Below are positions 466-8,738 of a DNA stretch of 64,000 nt, in pieces; the stretch's first letter is position 1, and each line of letters opens with the position of its first letter. The DNA is from Chloroflexota bacterium (GTDB lineage Bacteria; Chloroflexota; Anaerolineae; Aggregatilineales; Phototrophicaceae): NCBI GenBank assembly GCA_016223085.1, contig JACRPS010000029.1, forward strand, positions 62,001-126,000, read 5' to 3'. A model generated the notes under the pieces. The model ran no database searches, was not told the DNA's origin, and saw nothing but the letters and a program-made list of their open reading frames with translations. The translations under genes were made by a program, and so were the position numbers.

Positions 466-1065
466 ATGGACTTCAGCGCGCAGACCGAATACGACGACCG
501 GAAATGGACGGGGTTAAACGCTGCCGGGCAGGTCATCCGGTTCAACAATTTCTACAACTGCCACTTCGTCCAGTGTAACTTTCACGAAACGCAGATGGTG
601 GAATGCCGCTTTAAGAACTGTATCTTTATCCGGTGCGATTTAAGCCTCATGTCGGTCAAGGATTGTTCGTTTTCAGAGGCTCGGTTCGAGGACTCGCAGC
701 TTTCCGGCGTGAACTGGAGCGAGGCGGTCTGGGATAAACGCGGCGTCCTAAACTCCGTGCATTTCACCAACTGCGGCCTGAACTATTCCACCTTCTTCGG
801 CATCACGCTGCGAAAAATGACCCTCACGTGCTGCGTGGCAAAAGACGTGGATTTCGGCGAGTCCGACCTGACCGGCGCGAACTGCGCCGGCACGGATTTC
901 ACCGACAGCCGCTTTTTTCATACCAACCTGACCGAAGCCGATTTTACCGGAGCGACCAACTACCGCATTTCTGCCAGCGTCAATACCTTAAAAAAGACCC
1001 GCTTTTCCCTGCCGGAAGCGATGTCCCTGCTCTACAGTCTCGATATTGTGCTGGTAGAAGCGTAA
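466..1065 (+). CDS. pentapeptide-repeat protein
   Basis: This 199-residue protein is built almost wholly of degenerate A(D/N)LXX-type repeats, clearest in the second half (for example SDLTGANCAGTDF and TNLTEADFTGAT). Such repeats fold into a right-handed quadrilateral beta helix. The first half is unusually rich in cysteine and phenylalanine (repeating NCHFVQCNF-like units), a common variant. There is no signal peptide or membrane segment, so it is probably cytoplasmic. Quinolone-resistance proteins of the Qnr/YjbI kind share the fold, but nothing here supports that role. The ATG lies 4 bases after the stop of the ARMT1-like gene, which suggests one operon. The function is unknown. Confidence 0.85.
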   Translation: MDFSAQTEYDDRKWTGLNAAGQVIRFNNFYNCHFVQCNFHETQMVECRFKNCIFIRCDLSLMSVKDCSFSEARFEDSQLSGVNWSEAVWDKRGVLNSVHFTNCGLNYSTFFGITLRKMTLTCCVAKDVDFGESDLTGANCAGTDFTDSRFFHTNLTEADFTGATNYRISASVNTLKKTRFSLPEAMSLLYSLDIVLVEA

Positions 1066-1183
1066 GTCCGTGTTTCGACACGCTGGGCGACAAGGCAGAA
1101 ATGTCCGCCTCTACACCTCTTTTTGAACAAATTTTCGCTTTTAAGCGTATAAGAGGAGAGTGCTGGTTACGGGGCTTTTCCGC

Positions 1184-1375
1184 ATGAAACTGTATCGCGG
1201 CTGCATGATGGCCTTCTTCGGCCTGCTCCTCGTACTGCTTTCCCTCGCGCTCAGCCGGGCCTATGGCATTGTCGGACTGATGCTGCCGTCGCTGGTGTTT
1301 GGTTTCACCTACCTGTGGGTGGACAGTTTCCTGGCGGAACTGATTCGCTGGGATGAAGACCGCAACCGGGGTTAA
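1184..1375 (+). CDS. small two-helix membrane protein
   Basis: A 63-residue product starts MKLYRGCMMAFF and holds two hydrophobic stretches (about residues 7-28 and 31-48) followed by a charged tail ending RWDEDRNRG. A GTG 24 bases upstream would add eight residues, but the AGGAG before it sits too close to work well. I recognise no family. Its place just before a row of 2TM-domain genes and its similar size hint at a relation, yet it lacks the shared DGEL tail of those proteins. It could still be a chance ORF, although hydrophobicity and codon use look natural. Confidence 0.5.
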   Translation: MKLYRGCMMAFFGLLLVLLSLALSRAYGIVGLMLPSLVFGFTYLWVDSFLAELIRWDEDRNRG

Positions 1376-1435
1376 TCGTACAACTTTGCCGGTCTTTTTA
1401 CGTACAATGAAATAGGAGTATTGCGCCGGTCCGCT

Positions 1436-1463
1436 GTAGGGACGAGGCCTGCCTCGTCCCTAT
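1436..1463. repeat. solitary GTAGGG palindrome
   Basis: A near-perfect 28-bp palindrome has arms GTAGGGACGAGGC and its complement GCCTCGTCCCTA. It stands between two genes and belongs to the window-wide family of GTAGGG...CCCTAC palindromes. Confidence 0.85.
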
Positions 1464-1494
1464 AAAAGAAAAGATTGGTACACGGGGAACGCTG

Positions 1495-1875
1495 ATGGAC
1501 GACGAACGCTATCAGGCCGCGCGCCGCCGGGTGATCGGGCGGCTGTTCTGGCGGCTGACGTTTTTCCTCGATTTGATTTTCTTCCTCCTGCTGATGTACG
1601 TGCTGTGGCTGAGCGTCGGCAGAACGCCTGAATCCGAAGACAATCTGGGCGCGCTGTTTGCCACCTTCATCTTTGGCAGCGGCCTGCTGGTCCATGGCGC
1701 GCTGGCGTTTAACGTGTTTGGCCGGCTAATTGACCGCGCCACCCGCCGCGAACTGGAACGCGACCAGCCGGAGGAAAAACCCAAACGCAAGCGGCTGCAA
1801 CTGGCCGACGATGGCGAAGTTGTCGCACTGGTGGATGATGAGTCTGAGTCGCAGGAGAGCCGTTATGCGCGATGA
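1495..1875 (+). CDS. 2TM-domain protein, first of the tandem array
   Basis: The 126-residue product has a basic N-terminal helix (MDDERYQAARRRV), two transmembrane helices at about 17-41 and 52-78, a short amphipathic Arg/Glu-rich helix, and the tail KRKRLQLADDGEVVALVDDE. The two-helix layout matches the 2TM domain found C-terminal to some bacterial sensor kinases. The tail matches the K-R-x(3)-L-S/T-x-D/E-G-E-L pattern of its neighbours but has Ala where they have Ser or Thr. The stop overlaps the start of the next paralogue by 11 bases, so translation is probably coupled. The function is unknown. Confidence 0.85.
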   Translation: MDDERYQAARRRVIGRLFWRLTFFLDLIFFLLLMYVLWLSVGRTPESEDNLGALFATFIFGSGLLVHGALAFNVFGRLIDRATRRELERDQPEEKPKRKRLQLADDGEVVALVDDESESQESRYAR

Positions 1876-2347
1876 TAACCTGGACTACGCCGCCATCCGC
1901 CGTCAGGTGGAAGCCGAACTCCAGCAGAAGCGCTTCCAGCGGCAGCTTGTATTGTTCCTGTTGAGTGGTTTTATCTTCCTGCTGTTTTTAGTGATGGTTC
2001 TGCTGGCGCTGCCTGATTCCATGGACTCGGTTGTCATAAACCGCGACAGCCTGCTGTCGGTGGTGTATTTTCTGGCGGCAGGCTGGGTCGTTGCCCTGGT
2101 TTTCCATGCCCTGTCCACCTTCCTCGTTAATTCGCCGGGTTGGGCGCGGAAGATGCGGCGGCGGCTGACGGCGCAAGCCCTGGAAGACACGCTGTTTGAC
2201 CAGCGTGAGGGTTTAGCCGAACTGTCAGCGCACAAAATCAAACGCCAGCCCGGCAGTACCCTGCGCCTGTCCGATGAGGGCGAGCTGCTGGACATTGTCG
2301 AAGATCGCTGGCAGGACGACCCGAAACGTGAGGAACGACATGCGTGA
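1865..2347 (+). CDS. 2TM-domain protein, MRDDNLDY paralogue 1
   Basis: The start is the ATG of MRDDNLDYAAIRRQVEAEL, because the same N-terminus opens the next two genes; an upstream open frame is only the shadow of the previous gene. The product has 160 residues: a charged amphipathic N-terminal helix, TM helices at roughly 27-50 and 66-92, a basic connecting helix and the tail TLRLSDEGELLDIVEDRW. It overlaps the preceding gene by 11 bases and the next by 8, so the array is a tightly coupled operon. Repeated duplication of one ancestral gene is the simplest origin. The function is not known. Confidence 0.88.
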   Translation: MRDDNLDYAAIRRQVEAELQQKRFQRQLVLFLLSGFIFLLFLVMVLLALPDSMDSVVINRDSLLSVVYFLAAGWVVALVFHALSTFLVNSPGWARKMRRRLTAQALEDTLFDQREGLAELSAHKIKRQPGSTLRLSDEGELLDIVEDRWQDDPKREERHA

Positions 2348-2834
2348 CGATAACCTGGACTATACAGCGATTCGCCGGCGGGTTGAAATCGAACTGCAAC
2401 AGGAGCGCCGCCGGGGACAAACTATCCTGTTTGCGATCAATGTCTTTTTACTCTGCTTTTTTATGCTGCTGACGTGGGTCATCATCCCGAACACAAGTGT
2501 TACGATAACCAGTTCTGATTATTTCGGCACTATGACGGCGATCTATAATGCATGGGCTGCAAAGGTTTTGTTGTCGGTCGGCTGGACAATTGGGCTGCTG
2601 TTGCACGGGCTGGCGGCTTATGCTAACAGCTCGAACGGGTGGATAGACAGATACCGCCGCCGGCTGCTGGCACGGGAAATCGAATTCGCGCGGCTGGGTA
2701 TTGATGAGGATCGCCTGAACGAATCGGCGCCGGTTGGAAAAGCAAAGCGCGGGCCCCTGGAATTGAGCGAAGACGGTGAGATGATCGAAGTTCAGGAGAA
2801 TGAACCGGAGGCAAATAGAAGTCATCATGCGTGA
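2340..2834 (+). CDS. 2TM-domain protein, MRDDNLDY paralogue 2
   Basis: This 164-residue protein starts MRDDNLDYTAIRRRVEIELQ and is closely related to the genes on either side. Two TM helices (about 29-50 and 68-90) are followed by a basic helix (RRRLLAREIEFARLG) and the conserved tail LELSEDGEMIEVQENE. AGGAAC lies a few bases before the ATG. It overlaps the previous gene by 8 bases and the following gene by 8 bases. The loop between the helices is the most variable part of the family. The tail serine sits in an acidic context, as in the fused kinase downstream. Confidence 0.88.
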   Translation: MRDDNLDYTAIRRRVEIELQQERRRGQTILFAINVFLLCFFMLLTWVIIPNTSVTITSSDYFGTMTAIYNAWAAKVLLSVGWTIGLLLHGLAAYANSSNGWIDRYRRRLLAREIEFARLGIDEDRLNESAPVGKAKRGPLELSEDGEMIEVQENEPEANRSHHA

Positions 2835-3300
2835 CGATAATCTGGATTACACGGCCATCCGCCGCCGGGTTGAGGTTGAATTACAGCAGCAGCGCCGCAA
2901 GGGGCAGATTGCCCTGTTCGTGGTGAACTGTCTGATCTTTTTTATCTTCATGCTGGTGACGTGGGTACTGGTGCCCGATACGTCGGCCAACTTCACGCTG
3001 ACGGACGATATGCTCGCGGCGATGATTATGCTGTCGGTCGGCTGGGCGACCGGGTTGTTCCTGCATGGGATGGCGGCCTTTGGCATCGGCTCAAAAAGCT
3101 GGACCGACCAGCGGCGCAAGCAGTTGTTGCTGCGCGAGGTAGAATACGCCCGGTTGGGGCTGGACGATGCTATGCTGGACGAGCCGGCTGAAAAGACCAA
3201 ACGCAGCGGCAAACTGCGCCTGTCTGACGAGGGCGAACTGCTGGACATCGTGGAAGAGGATTATGCCGCTGAAGAACCCCGCCAGCAGCGCCGTCGCTAG
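2827..3300 (+). CDS. 2TM-domain protein, MRDDNLDY paralogue 3
   Basis: The 157-residue product begins MRDDNLDYTAIRRRVEVELQ, nearly identical to the previous paralogue over the first 25 residues. It has two TM helices (about 29-50 and 61-83), a basic helix (RRKQLLLREVEYARLGLDD) and the tail LRLSDEGELLDIVEED. The high N-terminal identity points to recent duplication. Overlap with the upstream gene is 8 bases; the next gene begins 18 bases after its stop with a clear AGGGAGG site. Confidence 0.88.
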   Translation: MRDDNLDYTAIRRRVEVELQQQRRKGQIALFVVNCLIFFIFMLVTWVLVPDTSANFTLTDDMLAAMIMLSVGWATGLFLHGMAAFGIGSKSWTDQRRKQLLLREVEYARLGLDDAMLDEPAEKTKRSGKLRLSDEGELLDIVEEDYAAEEPRQQRRR

Positions 3301-3318
3301 GCAGGTAGGGAGGCAGCC

Positions 3319-3831
3319 ATGCTCGTGATCGGCATCGCCGAAATTATCATCATTACGATTATCGCCATTGGCGCTTTGATGCTGGCACTGGGGCTGGCAC
3401 GGGCGCTGGGCGCGGGCAAAAACCGGTCCCAGTCCAATCGTGTCACCGCCGACGTGGCTGCCGGCGCGGACTTCGACGGTATTCGCACCCGCATCGAACG
3501 CCGCTACCGGCGGCGCTTTGAACTGGCGGCACATGTTGTCTTTTACGTGTTTATCGTCGGCGGATTATGGCTGCTGCGGATGCCCCCGCCGGCGCTGCCG
3601 CTGCTGGCCGGTGTCTGGGCGCTGGTGCTGGCGCTGCACGCGCTGCAATTTATCTTCGCGGAATTCACCGACCGGGCGATTGAGCGCGAAATCGAGCGCG
3701 AACGGGCGCGGGTGTACGGCAGTGATAAACCGAAGCGCGACCGGAAGGTACGCCTGTCCGACGAGGGTGAACTGATTGACGTGGCAGAAGACGAGTGGGA
3801 CGACGGCGACCAGCAGCAGCGCCGGCGTTAG
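3319..3831 (+). CDS. 2TM-domain protein with an extra N-terminal membrane anchor
   Basis: The 170-residue product adds a membrane helix (MLVIGIAEIIIITIIAIGAL) before the usual block of basic helix, two TM helices (about 70-88 and 91-112), EREIERERA helix and tail VRLSDEGELIDVAEDEW. The AGGGAGG site 8 bases before the ATG fixes the start. The KPKRDRKVRL segment before the tail is nearly the same as the KPKRDRRVRL of the fused kinase that follows, so this gene is the closest relative of the kinase C-terminus. The three-helix architecture is unlike its neighbours. Confidence 0.85.
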   Translation: MLVIGIAEIIIITIIAIGALMLALGLARALGAGKNRSQSNRVTADVAAGADFDGIRTRIERRYRRRFELAAHVVFYVFIVGGLWLLRMPPPALPLLAGVWALVLALHALQFIFAEFTDRAIEREIERERARVYGSDKPKRDRKVRLSDEGELIDVAEDEWDDGDQQQRRR

Positions 3832-3904
3832 TTTCCCTTTTGAATGCCCCGTTCGTGGTTTATAATGCGTTTGAACACATACACTGGATTTTTCTGGGGG
3901 CGCT

Positions 3905-5512
3905 ATGGCGCTGGTTGAAGGGCAGATGCTTGGCCCGTATAAAATCGTGGGGCAGCTTGGGCAGGGCGGCATGGCGACCGTGTATAAGGCGCATCATGCC
4001 AGACTCGACCGCTATGTTGCCGTTAAGGTGATGCACCAGGCCTTCCTGCAGGACCCCAATTTTCACAGCCGGTTTGAACGCGAAGCGCAGATTGTCGCCC
4101 GGCTGGAACATCCCCACATCGTGCCGGTGTACGACTACGCTGAAACCGAAGGCCAGCCCTATCTGGTCATGAAATACGTCGAAGGGCGCACGCTGAAAGG
4201 GCTGCTGGCCGAAGGCCGCCTGTCGCTCGACCGGATTGTGCAGATTATGACGCCGATTGCCGACGCGCTGACCTACGCCCACCAGCACGGGGTTTTGCAC
4301 CGCGACATCAAGCCATCGAATATCGTGATTGACGCCGCCGGCACGCCCTACCTGACCGACTTCGGCCTGGCGCGGATCGCGCAGTCGGGCGAAAGCACGA
4401 TGAGCCATGACATGATTCTGGGCACGCCGCAGTATATCTCGCCGGAGCAGGCGCGCGGCGAACGCGACCTGGACGCCCGCACCGACGTGTACTCGTTTGG
4501 CGTGATTCTGTACGAACTGGTGGTGGGGCGCGTGCCGTTTAACGCCGATACCCCCTACGCCATCGTCCATGACCATATTTACAGCCCGCTGCCCGCGCCC
4601 AGCAGCCTGAACCCGGACATTCCGCCAGCGGTCGAGCGCGTGCTGGTGAAGGCGCTGGCGAAAACCCCGGCGGAGCGATACGCCACCCCTAACGACCTGA
4701 TGCAGGACTTCCGGCAGGCGCTCAACGAATCCGGCCTGCGGGCGCTGCCCAGCGCGCACGTCTGGACGCAGGATGAAGCGCCGCGCCTGATGGACGACGC
4801 GCCCACGATCACCGACCAGCAGCCGCGCCCGGCGGAAACACCCGGTAAGCCGGGGCGCTACGTCTCCATTCCCGCGCCGGTGCCGCCCAGGCCGCCGCAG
4901 CCGCCGCAGGTGGAAGCCCGCTGGGACATGGGCAACGTGAAGTGGGATGAAGTTGGGCGCAAGATCGAAGACAGCGTGAAGCGTGGCAGCGGCGTCGTCG
5001 CCGAGATCGCCCGGTCCATTCAGGAAGCGGTGGACGAAAACCGGAAGCCGGTCAGCGACGAGGAACGCATCCGCCGCAGGATTCAGAAACGCTACGAGGA
5101 ACGTACCGGCCTTATCATTCACCTGACCATCTACATCGTGATGCAGTTGGTCTTCTGGGGTATGTGGGCCAATTCGCAGGATTTGTTTGCCACCCTGCTC
5201 GCCGGGAACCCGGTTCCCTTTGCAATGTTGGACTTCCCCTGGCCGGCGATTGTGACGTTCTTCTGGGGCATCGGCGTCTTTGCCAACATCATGGATTATT
5301 ACAACAAGTACGGCGCCGGCGCGGAAAAACGCGAACGGCTGATCCAGGAGGAACTGGAACGCGAACGCCAGCGCAAGCTGGAAGCCTACTACGACGAGAA
5401 GCCGAAACGCGACCGGCGCGTTCGGCTAACTGAAGACGGCGAACTGGAAGACGTGCCGGAAGACGACTACGCCGACACCTCCAAACCCAAACGCGGGCGG
5501 CGCGGGCGGTAG
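3905..5512 (+). CDS. Ser/Thr protein kinase with C-terminal 2TM domain
   Basis: A PknB-type kinase domain fills residues 1-280. The glycine loop GQGGMATV is at 19-26, the ATP lysine K41 lies in VAVKV, the catalytic loop HRDIKPSN is at 132-139, DFG at 152-154, and GTPQYISPEQ at 173-182. A proline-rich linker follows, then a 2TM domain (helices about 400-425 and 440-465), an Arg/Glu helix and the tail KRDRRVRLTEDGELEDVPEDD. The C-terminal half is therefore a copy of the small neighbouring proteins. This replaces the extracellular PASTA sensor of PknB. Inference: the small proteins dimerise with the kinase through the 2TM domain or present the Ser/Thr tail to it. All catalytic residues are intact. 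A TATAAT lies at 3861. Confidence 0.93.
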   Translation: MALVEGQMLGPYKIVGQLGQGGMATVYKAHHARLDRYVAVKVMHQAFLQDPNFHSRFEREAQIVARLEHPHIVPVYDYAETEGQPYLVMKYVEGRTLKGLLAEGRLSLDRIVQIMTPIADALTYAHQHGVLHRDIKPSNIVIDAAGTPYLTDFGLARIAQSGESTMSHDMILGTPQYISPEQARGERDLDARTDVYSFGVILYELVVGRVPFNADTPYAIVHDHIYSPLPAPSSLNPDIPPAVERVLVKALAKTPAERYATPNDLMQDFRQALNESGLRALPSAHVWTQDEAPRLMDDAPTITDQQPRPAETPGKPGRYVSIPAPVPPRPPQPPQVEARWDMGNVKWDEVGRKIEDSVKRGSGVVAEIARSIQEAVDENRKPVSDEERIRRRIQKRYEERTGLIIHLTIYIVMQLVFWGMWANSQDLFATLLAGNPVPFAMLDFPWPAIVTFFWGIGVFANIMDYYNKYGAGAEKRERLIQEELERERQRKLEAYYDEKPKRDRRVRLTEDGELEDVPEDDYADTSKPKRGRRGR

Positions 5513-5857
5513 CGAATTTGCCGTAGGGACGAGTCATCCTCATCCTATGCGCACCAAGTTAAGCGTTCTGCGCCGCCAGGGGCTGGAAGTCCCCCAGCTA
5601 ACTTGTCACGGTAAGCCCGCTGGAAGCGGGCTGAAGAACACCTCTAACTCGTCTTGCCAGCCACCTCGCAGGTGGCTTTTTTCGTCCAGCCGTCCCGCTT
5701 TCAGCGTCCGGCGTGGCACATCGAGTCCTTAACGAGTGCAACTGGGATGAGTCACCCTCGCCCCTGCAAACACCCGCGTTCGCATAACACGCTACAACTT
5801 TTCACCCCCCGGCGCGTATTAGACCATAGCGATGCCGTTTGAGAGGGAGAGTACGCC
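5513..5857. repeat. gene-free stretch with a cluster of hairpins
   Basis: No gene is visible in these 345 bases. The stretch holds a decayed GTAGGG palindrome near 5521 and three consecutive hairpins: around 5577-5600 (CAGGGGCTGGAAGTCCCCCAG), 5611-5632 (AGCCCGCTGGAAGCGGGCT) and 5659-5682. The repeated design (arm, GAAG-type loop, arm) resembles REP-like elements; a similar unit is seen near 22180. Confidence 0.6.
5659..5682 (+). terminator. probable rho-independent terminator
   Basis: A stem AGCCACCT with loop CGC and AGGTGGCT is followed by six T residues. It would end transcription coming from the kinase gene, about 150 bases after its stop. It may equally be one member of the local hairpin cluster. 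Confidence 0.55.
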
Positions 5858-6265
5858 ATGCCTGATGATCTGAACGACTACCGCGAAATCCGCCGGCGTG
5901 TCGAACGCCTGTACAATGCTCGCAAGGAAATCTTTATCCACACGGCGGTTTTTGCCATCATCAATGTGCTGCTGTGGCTGGTCTGGCGGTCTACCGATTT
6001 GTTCACCAGCATCAGTGCCATGTGGCTGCTGCTGATTACCGGCGGCTGGGGCGCGGGTTATATCGCCCACCTGATTGATTACCTGATGAAAGAGGCCAGC
6101 GAGCGCGCGGTGGAACGGGAAATCGAACGCGAACGCGCCTGGCGCGCCGGCACGCTGGACGAAAAGCCAAAGCGTGACCAGCATGCCCGCCTGACCGCCG
6201 ATGGCGAACTGGAGATCATCACGGCAGACGAGGAATATGAGGAACGCGCCCGCAAACGGCGCTAA
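5858..6265 (+). CDS. 2TM-domain protein, last of the array
   Basis: The 135-residue product starts MPDDLNDYREIRRRVERLYN, a looser version of the MRDDNLDY start. TM helices lie at about 26-46 and 52-74, then EREIERERAWRAG and the tail KRDQHARLTADGELEIITADEEY. GAGAGGGAGAG precedes the ATG by a few bases. It stands apart from the main cluster behind a terminator-like hairpin and so probably has its own promoter. The tail keeps a Thr before the DGEL motif, as the kinase does. Confidence 0.87.
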   Translation: MPDDLNDYREIRRRVERLYNARKEIFIHTAVFAIINVLLWLVWRSTDLFTSISAMWLLLITGGWGAGYIAHLIDYLMKEASERAVEREIERERAWRAGTLDEKPKRDQHARLTADGELEIITADEEYEERARKRR

Positions 6266-6364
6266 CGCGGCGTTTTCCTAACCGTATCCCAACGATGGGT
6301 TCGCCTAAAATTGAAAACCGACTACAATGGGGGAAAGTGGTTTACAGGTAGGGAGAATCCCCCG

Positions 6365-6979
6365 ATGGTTACGAACCCGGTTGCCATCATGCGGCGCGAA
6401 AACGCGCGGTTGCAGGCCGAAAACGAACGGCTGGAAGAAGAACTGCACAACCTGCGCGACTTCGTGCAAATCCTGAATGATCTGGCGCTGGCGACCAAAA
6501 ACGTCACCAGCGACGACGAACTGCTGCCCCTGCTGGAACGCATCTTCACCAAGGCGCTGAAGCTGCTTAACGCGCCGGACGGTTCGCTGATGCTGCTGGA
6601 CGACGAGAGCAACGAACTGGTGTTTGTGCTGGTCAAAGGCGCGCTGGCGGCCAACCTGAAAGGCTATCGCATTCCGGCCAACGAGGGCATCGCCGGCTGG
6701 GTCATCCAGAACGCCGAACCGGCGCTGGTGCGCGACGTGCGCCGCGACCCGCGTTTTTCGCACACGGTGGACGAGCAGTTCACGTTCCATACCCAGTCCA
6801 TTGTTGCCGCGCCGCTGATCGGCGACCGCAAGGTATATGGTGTGATCGAGGCGCTCAACAAACCCGGCGACGAACCCTTCAGCGACTCTGATCTGGCGCT
6901 GCTGGGACTGCTGTGCCGCTTCGCCGGGGAAGCGCTGGCCGATATTGAGCGCCTTAGCCCGCCGGAAAAGACGACCTGA
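6365..6979 (+). CDS. GAF-domain protein
   Basis: I chose the ATG with GGGAG 9 bases upstream; an earlier TTG would add 18 poorly convincing residues. The 204-residue product opens with a coiled coil (about residues 10-35, heptads in NARLQAENERLEEELHNL), then one GAF domain to residue 190. Family features include PANEGIAGWVIQNAEP, VRDVRRDPRFS and SIVAAPLIGDRKVYGVIEALNK, the pattern of GAF domains found in phytochrome-like and sensor kinases. No output domain is attached, so it may act as a partner subunit of a kinase. The ligand is unknown. Confidence 0.88.
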   Translation: MVTNPVAIMRRENARLQAENERLEEELHNLRDFVQILNDLALATKNVTSDDELLPLLERIFTKALKLLNAPDGSLMLLDDESNELVFVLVKGALAANLKGYRIPANEGIAGWVIQNAEPALVRDVRRDPRFSHTVDEQFTFHTQSIVAAPLIGDRKVYGVIEALNKPGDEPFSDSDLALLGLLCRFAGEALADIERLSPPEKTT

Positions 6980-7000
6980 TCTGTCCAATCTATCCCCCGA

Positions 7001-7801
7001 TCACTGGCATGTCGCGGGCAGCGGCGCGTTGGGGTCGGGCGGCGTAGTGACGATGCTGACGGTCGCTTCTGGATAAAGCGACTTCACGAAGTTTTGAATC
7101 ACGGTGTGCGCCTGCGCCTGCACATCGTTTAAGATGCCTTCTTCCAGCGCGCGGGCGCGGAACTGCTGCACCGCAAACCGCCGCCCCTCGACCACGAGTT
7201 CCGGCGCGCTGCGGGAGAACACCCCCGTTTCCATCGAAGCGATATACGATTCCTGCTCGTTGACAAAACAGTCCTGAAGCTGCGGCGGTGGCAGCCGCAC
7301 CGTGATCGTGTCGCCGTCCTGCGTCACATCGTCCGGGCCGATCTGGCTAAGGTCAATACCGGCATTCACGTGGCCGACCGCGACCATCACCTGCTTTTCG
7401 CCATACAACAGCTTAAGAATGTCCGGCATGTCACGTTCGCTGGTAACAAGGCTGGAGTAGTTGTAACGCACGGTCGTAAGCTGTGACATGCCCTGAATGC
7501 TGTCCAGCGCCAGTTGAATATTCACCAGCACCGGCGCGTTAAACATATTCTGGATGCCGCCGATGATGCCGTTGATCGAGATCGTTCCGGCCAGCAGCAG
7601 CGCCACGATGGGGACAATCAGCACCACCAGGCAGCCGAGCGCCCCCAGCACCCCCCAGCCACAACCTGAACAACCCCGGCGTTCCGGCGCAGCGTCCCCG
7701 GCGTAGGGTGACGGCAGCGAGGCCGGGGGCGGCGCGGGCGGCAGTTCCGGCACGACGGAGGGCGGGGTGTCGCTGGCGGGTGGTGTACGCGGTTCGGCCA
7801 T
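7001..7801 (-). CDS. membrane-anchored DUF4230-type protein
   Basis: A 266-residue product has a proline-rich cytoplasmic N-terminus (to ~45), one TM helix (about 48-72) and an extracytoplasmic domain. That domain contains NAGIDLSQIGPDDVTQDGDT and ITVRLPPPQL, which fit the DUF4230 core (xGxDLSxIxxxDVxxxGDxIxVxLP). AGGAGA lies 6 bases before the ATG. The next minus-strand gene upstream is a paralogue with the same layout, including an INGIIGGIQNMF segment after the helix. The function of the family is unknown; a role at the outer membrane face is inference. Confidence 0.75.
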   Translation of the reverse strand: MAEPRTPPASDTPPSVVPELPPAPPPASLPSPYAGDAAPERRGCSGCGWGVLGALGCLVVLIVPIVALLLAGTISINGIIGGIQNMFNAPVLVNIQLALDSIQGMSQLTTVRYNYSSLVTSERDMPDILKLLYGEKQVMVAVGHVNAGIDLSQIGPDDVTQDGDTITVRLPPPQLQDCFVNEQESYIASMETGVFSRSAPELVVEGRRFAVQQFRARALEEGILNDVQAQAHTVIQNFVKSLYPEATVSIVTTPPDPNAPLPATCQ

Positions 7802-7874: not shown

Positions 7875-8738
7875 TTAGGGCTTGGTCCAGGTGCCGGCGA
7901 CCTCATCCCGTATCCAGCCTTCCGGCGGCTCAGGCTGACAGGTGCTGTCCGGCGGGGTTTCCGTTTCTGCAAACACAATTTGAACGTCCTTACCGGTCAG
8001 CAGCTTGATGAAACTGCCGAGTGTGAGATTAGCTTCCCGTTCGGCTCGCGTCGTGATGCCCCCCTCAACCGCATCCGCGCGAAAGGCATTAAGCGCCGTA
8101 TACGATGCCAATTGGCGGATTTCGTCCCAATCCACACCGGGGCATAACGTGGTCGAACCCGCGTACTGGTCAATAAAATCTACGCTGCAACTGGTTAACT
8201 GCGCGTGTGGTAAGGTGAGCGTGTAGGTTTGAGAGGCTTCGTCGAAGGTCAGGTTTGCTTCTGTCAGCCCAGACAGGTCAATCCCGGCCCGTATCGTTCC
8301 CTGCGCGACATAGTCTGCGGAAAAACCGCACAGGTTGTTGCCCAGCACCCCGCGACGATCAACGCCGACCTGAATGTTGGCCTTCGCTAACTGCGCGCTG
8401 ACGCTGACCAGTTGCCCCATTGGCTGTAAATGGGTGACAATTGTGCGGGTACTAATGACGGCAGCCGTCACGGGTTTTGGCGAAAACAGGTTCTGGATGC
8501 CGCCAATCACATTATTGAGCGTAATCGTCCCCATCAGGATAGGCAGCACCACTGGCAGGCTGGCGACGATCCCAATGACTGCGATAAGCAGGGCGCAGCC
8601 GGTCAAACAGCCCGAACGCCCCTGTGGAACGTGAACGTTAGTCACAATGGGAACAGGCTGCGCTTCGCGCAGATTCAGCGCTTGTGAAGATTCATCTTGC
8701 GTATCCGTAAAGGGTAGGGGTTGTTCATCCTGGGGCAT
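7875..8738 (-). CDS. membrane-anchored DUF4230-type protein, paralogue
   Basis: The 287-residue product has a cytoplasmic N-terminus of ~45 residues, a TM helix (about 47-73) and the same NNVIGGIQNLF segment as its neighbour. The outer domain holds IRAGIDLSGLTEANLTFDE and YTLTLPHAQLTSC, again a DUF4230-like core. Several cysteines in the outer domain (in NNLCGF, LTSCSV and TLCPG) could form disulfides and are not shared with the paralogue. GGAGG lies 7 bases before the ATG. The gap to the next gene is 73 bases, so the two are probably co-transcribed. Confidence 0.75.
   Translation of the reverse strand: MPQDEQPLPFTDTQDESSQALNLREAQPVPIVTNVHVPQGRSGCLTGCALLIAVIGIVASLPVVLPILMGTITLNNVIGGIQNLFSPKPVTAAVISTRTIVTHLQPMGQLVSVSAQLAKANIQVGVDRRGVLGNNLCGFSADYVAQGTIRAGIDLSGLTEANLTFDEASQTYTLTLPHAQLTSCSVDFIDQYAGSTTLCPGVDWDEIRQLASYTALNAFRADAVEGGITTRAEREANLTLGSFIKLLTGKDVQIVFAETETPPDSTCQPEPPEGWIRDEVAGTWTKP

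Follow-up and report, generated by a model that had tools for sequence, protein, structure and literature searches.

A Ser/Thr kinase and tandem small membrane proteins sharing a two-helix anchor and a C-terminal tail in a Phototrophicaceae genome

A tandem 2TM gene block around a PknB-class kinase

The window analyzed here is the whole 64,000-nucleotide stretch G000:C18:62001-126000 of a Chloroflexota genome, and positions are counted within it. Between 1495 and 6265, seven genes followed one another on the + strand, first five small ones, then that of the kinase, then one more small one, and all seven reading frames were open. The features of the region were the following:

1495..1875, + strand: s1, 126 aa; two hydrophobic helices; tail KPKRKRLQLADDGEV at 1774-1842
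1865..2347, + strand: s2, 160 aa; PF13239 two-helix (2TM) domain and tail (2231-2311); 11-base overlap with s1
2340..2834, + strand: s3, 164 aa; 2TM-like, with tail (2736-2807); 8-base overlap with s2
2827..3300, + strand: s4, 157 aa; 2TM-like, with tail (3190-3264); 8-base overlap with s3
3319..3831, + strand: s5, 170 aa; 2TM-like, with tail (3724-3798)
3905..5512, + strand: PknB-class Ser/Thr kinase, 535 aa; kinase domain aa 12-262 (3938-4690)
5078-5356, + strand: C-terminal part of the kinase, after a linker; PF13239 2TM domain aa 392-484, then the tail (5396-5470)
5659..5677, + strand: terminator-like stem-loop with T run, intrinsic type, between the kinase gene and s6
5858..6265, + strand: s6, 135 aa; PF13239 2TM domain and tail (6161-6235)
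6365..6979, + strand: GAF-domain protein (GAF, 1.5e-17), downstream of the 2TM block

The initial annotation had taken gene overlaps of 8-11 bases as a sign of coupled translation. Such overlaps were found at s1/s2 (11 bases), s2/s3 (8), and s3/s4 (8); the remaining junctions were gaps of 18 bases (s4-s5), 73 bases (s5-kinase), and 345 bases (kinase-s6). An AGGAG sequence preceded the s2 start, and the GAF gene had an alternative TTG start at 6311. A search of 1000-7100 for sigma-70-like promoters gave none, and terminator-like sites in the region numbered 12 on both strands versus 7.1 expected. Further downstream, the - strand encoded a tandem pair of proteins (7001-7801 and 7875-8738) that looked alike by eye and that we take to be, perhaps, of the DUF4230 type.

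The closest described family for the membrane part was Pfam PF13239 (2TM), a family of unknown function. The kinase (32.8 bits, 7.1e-8), s2 (30.5 bits), and s6 (29.6 bits) passed its cut-off of 24.8 bits, and these were the three matches over the cut-off in the whole genome, all within the island; s1 (16.7 bits), s3 (10.1), s4 (22.0), and s5 (18.5) scored below it. A seven-way alignment bore out the claim that the six small proteins and the kinase C-terminus share a PF13239-like two-helix anchor and a tail: the small proteins matched the C-terminal part of the kinase, and six of the eight invariant columns fell in the tail (K499, K501, R502, L508, G512, and E513 in kinase numbering). Pairwise identity among the six ranged from 27 to 52%, the closest pair being s3/s4, and s5 had one additional N-terminal hydrophobic stretch, judged by eye. 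An AlphaFold model of s6 as a single chain (mean pLDDT 77, pTM 0.47) placed helices at residues 3-45 and 51-96 with a five-residue loop between them; a fold search with this model gave no match at E <= 0.001.

The kinase domain was matched by Pkinase PF00069 (3.4e-53, aa 12-262), and the closest solved chains were PknB structures (E 6e-64, aligned over aa 12-274). K41, HRD 132-134, and DFG 152-154 were invariant in 17 aligned kinases, that of the window included, and the active site is, to judge from these residues, intact. The protein shares with the receptor-like Ser/Thr kinases PknB, StkP, and PrkC the N-terminal kinase domain followed by a membrane segment, as well as the catalytic lysine, HRD, and DFG; it differs from them in that no PASTA repeat was matched by Pfam and in that its membrane part consists of two helices, with the tail KPKRDRRVRLTEDGELEDV behind this 2TM domain. 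The PASTA kinase model NF033483 reached 366 bits, under its cut-off of 450, with its best stretch at aa 11-373. The kinase was also modeled as a single chain (AlphaFold, pTM 0.54); with the tail at pLDDT < 50, this model gave the tail no confident position, on the kinase domain or elsewhere.

Models of the anti-phage kinase PD-T4-6 matched the kinase domain at up to 6.7e-100, a value that might suggest a defense kinase of this type with the small proteins as its membrane partners. From the sequence comparisons we consider this very improbable indeed, as many different kinase models of the same library, which gives no cut-offs, matched the same domain; s1, s4, s6, and the GAF protein, those tested, matched nothing in the defense library; and the 2TM-kinase is kept across the family rather than scattered (a kinase-sized frame in 52 of 98 genomes, among the matches listed).

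Conservation of the kinase and small-protein neighborhood

PF13239 was present in 84 of the 98 genomes of the GTDB family to which the window belongs. We compared 92 regions, 91 fetched around PF13239 hits in family genomes plus the window, with ORFs called mechanically. A 2TM-kinase, with one or two C-terminal 2TM domains, was recognized in 52 of them; the 40 regions with small proteins and no recognized 2TM-kinase are an upper bound, since they include cuts at contig ends (e.g., L068) and a kinase in G016 that seems split over two frames (L060:5140-6730). Stand-alone 2TM proteins accompanied the kinase in 36 of the 52 regions (n = 81); 80 of these proteins shared its strand, and 64 were encoded no more than 1 kb away. 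The other 16 regions had none. Within the genus of the window, 14 of 15 kinase regions had stand-alone copies, from one to nine each. The cluster of a kinase with small 2TM proteins, as initially described, is thus real and conserved, on one strand, and its kinase bears the same anchor and tail.

When 396 genomes of the class were sampled, family members included, the kinase-type C-terminus was found in 26 at E <= 1e-6, all of the same order, and the tail in 15 at E <= 0.003, three of which lay outside the order and were weak. Database matches included a relative in an 'Aggregatilineales bacterium' record at 83% identity, and the s1 counterpart in locus L046 was 83% identical in the 2TM core. 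Thirty loci were examined outside Chloroflexota (Methanomassiliicoccales, another archaeal MAG, Ignavibacteria, Bacteroidota, and actinobacterial MAGs). There, 31 2TM proteins were recognized in 29 loci; their lengths ran from 90 to 299 aa, and 24 did not exceed 107 aa. The PF13239-related proteins of these loci differ from those of the island in both respects: the tail core was found in the last 75 residues of none of the 31, and no frame of the fetched loci gave a kinase-domain match at E <= 1e-5. The tail and the link to the kinase therefore look like additions of the lineage.

In four of the Ignavibacteria/Bacteroidota loci (L181, L183, L185, and L189), the tail-less 2TM genes adjoined a gene for a short protein resembling a winged-helix regulator and genes for membrane-looking proteins of about 200 aa, both judged by eye.

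Of the 20 regions from the genus, 14 encoded a homologue of the GAF protein, compared with 2 of the other 72. G008 carried two small proteins together with the GAF gene (L054) and the kinase alone on another contig (L055). G016 likewise had its GAF gene and a small protein on one contig (L061) and the broken kinase on a different one. Together with the terminator-like site, these arrangements suggest that s6 and the GAF gene form a unit of their own in the window. On a contig other than that of its kinase, G008 also encoded five more 2TM-like proteins in tandem, which matched the tail model (L213:6030-8491, G008:C34).

How far the small proteins depend on a kinase was judged from the matches listed. 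Among these, 52 of the 84 genomes had a frame of 480 aa or more that matched the kinase-type C-terminus, whereas in 31 of the 84, by hand count, all matches listed lay in frames shorter than 480 aa; this count excludes G016, with its broken kinase, and includes G033, whose frame is cut by a contig end. Profile searching thus did not uphold the expectation that the tail always occurs with 2TM-kinases. In other Anaerolineae MAGs, tandem arrays of five (L171:6986-9138) and three small 2TM genes (L167:6896-8336) were found with no kinase in the fetched stretch, and these proteins carried tails where read. From the kinase-free genomes, among the matches listed, and the L171 array, it follows that the kinase is not obligatory for small 2TM proteins.

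These observations are what would be expected if the small proteins had arisen by duplication in tandem arrays and had no functional connection with the kinase, which would have captured one copy as its membrane anchor, and if the tail were a general tag of short membrane proteins for placement, stability, or quality control. The 52% identity of s3 and s4, the separate contigs in G008, and the presence of the tail on other families (see below) agree with this explanation, which we hold to be possible but doubtful: the tail core was kept in all 60 of the 2TM-kinases, and small copies were kept beside the kinase in several genera, nearly all on the same strand, an order that chance capture by itself would not preserve. 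Derivation of the small proteins from the second 2TM domain of a kinase was also considered and was set aside, for the 2TM domains grouped mostly like with like and gave no clear donor.

The C-terminal tail and its use on other membrane proteins

By eye, the tail had the form K-x-K-R-x(4-7)-L-[ST/A]-x-[DE]-G-E-[LMV]. The form proposed at first, KR-x-LS/T-x-DGEL-x-D, is real but was drawn too tightly, as s1 has DGEV, s3 has DGEM, and s2, s4, and s5 have EGEL. The residue before the acidic turn was as claimed: Ala in s1, Ser in s2 to s5, and Thr in s6 and the kinase.

In the genome of the window, the seven best tail matches were the seven island genes (E 4.6e-12 to 1.9e-9), a partly circular result because the model contained these tails. 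An independent model was therefore built from the tails of 58 2TM-kinases of other genomes, with the window and its nearest relative excluded. With it, s3 to s6 scored 13.3-32.5 bits, above all 6000 shuffled decoys, the two highest of which reached 11.4 and 7.9, and above the 296 other ORFs of the window, with a best score of 3.7 bits; s2, at 11.4 bits, only equaled the best decoy, and s1 reached 1.8. Across the regions, the tail core was present within the last 75 residues of all 60 2TM-kinases and of 116 of 149 small proteins, the 33 lacking it including short or overlapping frames. For the six gene pairs between the window and L046, dN/dS was 0.27 in the tail and 0.19 in the rest, so both are, on these values, under purifying selection; the idea that the tail is more constrained than the rest was contradicted by this comparison, made on one close genome pair only.

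The initial annotation had pointed to a Ser or Thr kept before the acidic DGE and had inferred that the small proteins assemble with, or are phosphorylated by, the kinase. On the second alternative, they would be substrates modified at this tail residue, and phosphorylation would be the point of its conservation. Ser or Thr preceded the acidic turn in 119 of 176 tails, basic residues stand before this position and acidic ones after it, and the kinase has its catalytic residues. The best point in favor came from the genus of the window, where Ser/Thr was present in 14 of 15 kinase tails and 42 of 50 small-protein tails. Even there, however, one kinase has Arg, and the remaining tails of the full set have Asn (31), Gly (12), Ala (5), Asp (3), Glu (2), Arg (2), Gln (1), or His (1), so that Asn/Gly makes up 43 of 176 and Asp/Glu 5. 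Among the kinases themselves, 20 of 60 tails have Asn at this position; outside the genus, Asn (20/45) and Thr (19/45) were about equally used.

The residue falls, moreover, in a predicted turn. In the s6 model, the tail formed strands at 109-112 and 118-121 (pLDDT about 56-72), and in the kinase model, a separate AlphaFold job, at 506-508 and 514-516 (pLDDT < 50); in both, the variable position lay in the turn between strands. Ser, Thr, Asn, Gly, and Asp are usual in turns, and these five accounted for 165 of the 176 tails. Taken with the models, residue use speaks more for a beta-hairpin than for an obligatory phosphosite, although phosphorylation could occur on two thirds of the tails. We accordingly regard the small proteins as quite unlikely to be substrates phosphorylated on the tail, a reading set back as the main explanation by residue use at this position.

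Specificity of the tail to the kinase system was not supported by wider searches, in which two proteins outside the island carried it in the same genome. One, at C28:108313 (L212), has two helices and matched no Pfam family (tail at E 9.7e-4, by a model not containing it), and the other is the Pmp3 protein G000:C12:269292-269588 (L248; E 2.5e-5). Long Pmp3/YqaE proteolipids (PF01679) of the genus share this KPKR/DGE type of tail and have a membrane domain unrelated to 2TM. Fourteen such paralogues were found, one each from 14 of 17 genus genomes searched; long paralogues with such a tail lay in L217, L221, L224, L227, L240, and L242-L247 as well as in L248, and the short paralogues read (53-64 aa) lacked the tail. 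In these 14 tails, by hand count, the residue before DG was Ser in 4 and another in 10 (Ala 7, Asp 1, Glu 1, Met 1), which again argues against a substrate role.

In another genus, a group of tail-bearing proteins without a Pfam match ended in YV (FV in L091) shortly after the tail. Members adjoined the kinase gene in L101, L102, and L091, and in L068 one lay upstream of a 537-aa PF13239 frame running to the contig end. In L222:4664-5833, which encodes a PD40 beta-propeller protein, the motif stood at the N-terminus, ahead of the membrane helix, and in G045 (L282), a genome with no 2TM match at the thresholds used, it followed a single N-terminal helix. The tail is therefore, to a large extent, found widely on proteins with no link to a kinase, among them Pmp3, further short proteins of the membrane, and a beta-propeller protein.

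A general tag of the membrane proteins of this lineage, and not primarily a phosphorylation site, is the most likely reading of the tail. The SHOCT domain offers a comparison, although it is helical, unlike the predicted hairpin of the island tail, and Pfam scans of the island and of the tail-bearing proteins gave no SHOCT match. In its use, the tail appears similar: SHOCT is a short element that is mostly C-terminal and combines with many different domains (PMC3581485), and the tail too is short, mostly C-terminal, and joined to varied domains.

Possible co-assembly of the kinase with kinase-free anchors

The usual understanding of bacterial Ser/Thr kinases starts from an extracellular sensor, and related kinases are activated by dimerization. 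We propose, with a probability of roughly 0.45, that the island is a lineage-specific signaling cluster in which the kinase-free 2TM modules co-assemble with the kinase. In place of an extracellular PASTA sensor, the kinase would have a C-terminal membrane hairpin followed by a cytoplasmic tail, and the same module would also be made as stand-alone proteins. From the charges at the helix ends, read by eye, both ends of the 2TM unit, and hence the kinase domain and the tail, would be cytoplasmic, and hardly any of the protein would be exposed on the outer side. The 2TM modules would most likely pair in the membrane, a step suggested by their repeated co-location and by the presence of two 2TM modules in one chain (in 25 kinases and 43 small proteins), and kinase-free copies would then join the kinase in mixed oligomers and govern how it clusters, where it sits, or how active it is. 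A general docking or address tag of the membrane proteins of the lineage, through which the kinase and its clients could meet, is the most likely role of the basic KPKR patch and the hairpin-like tail.

Assembly of the kinase with the small proteins is plausible on this evidence. Also counted in favor of the proposal were the short loop and the helices, each longer than 40 residues, of the s6 model. The persistence of small 2TM proteins in genomes with no listed kinase-sized frame, the five in tandem in L171, and the 16 of 52 kinase regions lacking a small 2TM protein were counted against it. Kinases with two 2TM domains and stand-alone copies showed no clear trade-off (copies at 15 of 25 versus 21 of 27 loci, p 0.23; p 1.0 outside the genus), and an inverse relation between them, not being significant, was dropped as evidence for assembly.

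A different kind of gathering can be imagined, in which a dedicated cytoplasmic beta-hairpin tag, KPKR-x(n)-hxLxxDGExxxV, present on unrelated membrane proteins and, with the same anchor, on the kinase, would bring them into one membrane assembly through a shared receptor or through tag-tag pairing. We think this somewhat unlikely; if it were true, the tag would amount to a new kind of membrane scaffold code.

Searches of the literature on the 2TM domain, PF13239, Chloroflexi Ser/Thr kinases, and PknB with small membrane proteins, in a coverage that leaves out most subscription journals, found no description of the layout of this island; passages of PMC11237479 use '2TM' in a general sense. 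As the tail is common to Pmp3 and other small membrane proteins, it provides a sequence handle for finding more members. In the kinase itself no sensor domain was found, and next to its gene as many as nine kinase-free copies of the anchor are encoded within the genus. If the co-assembly proposed here is true, subunit composition in the membrane would set the output of the kinase.
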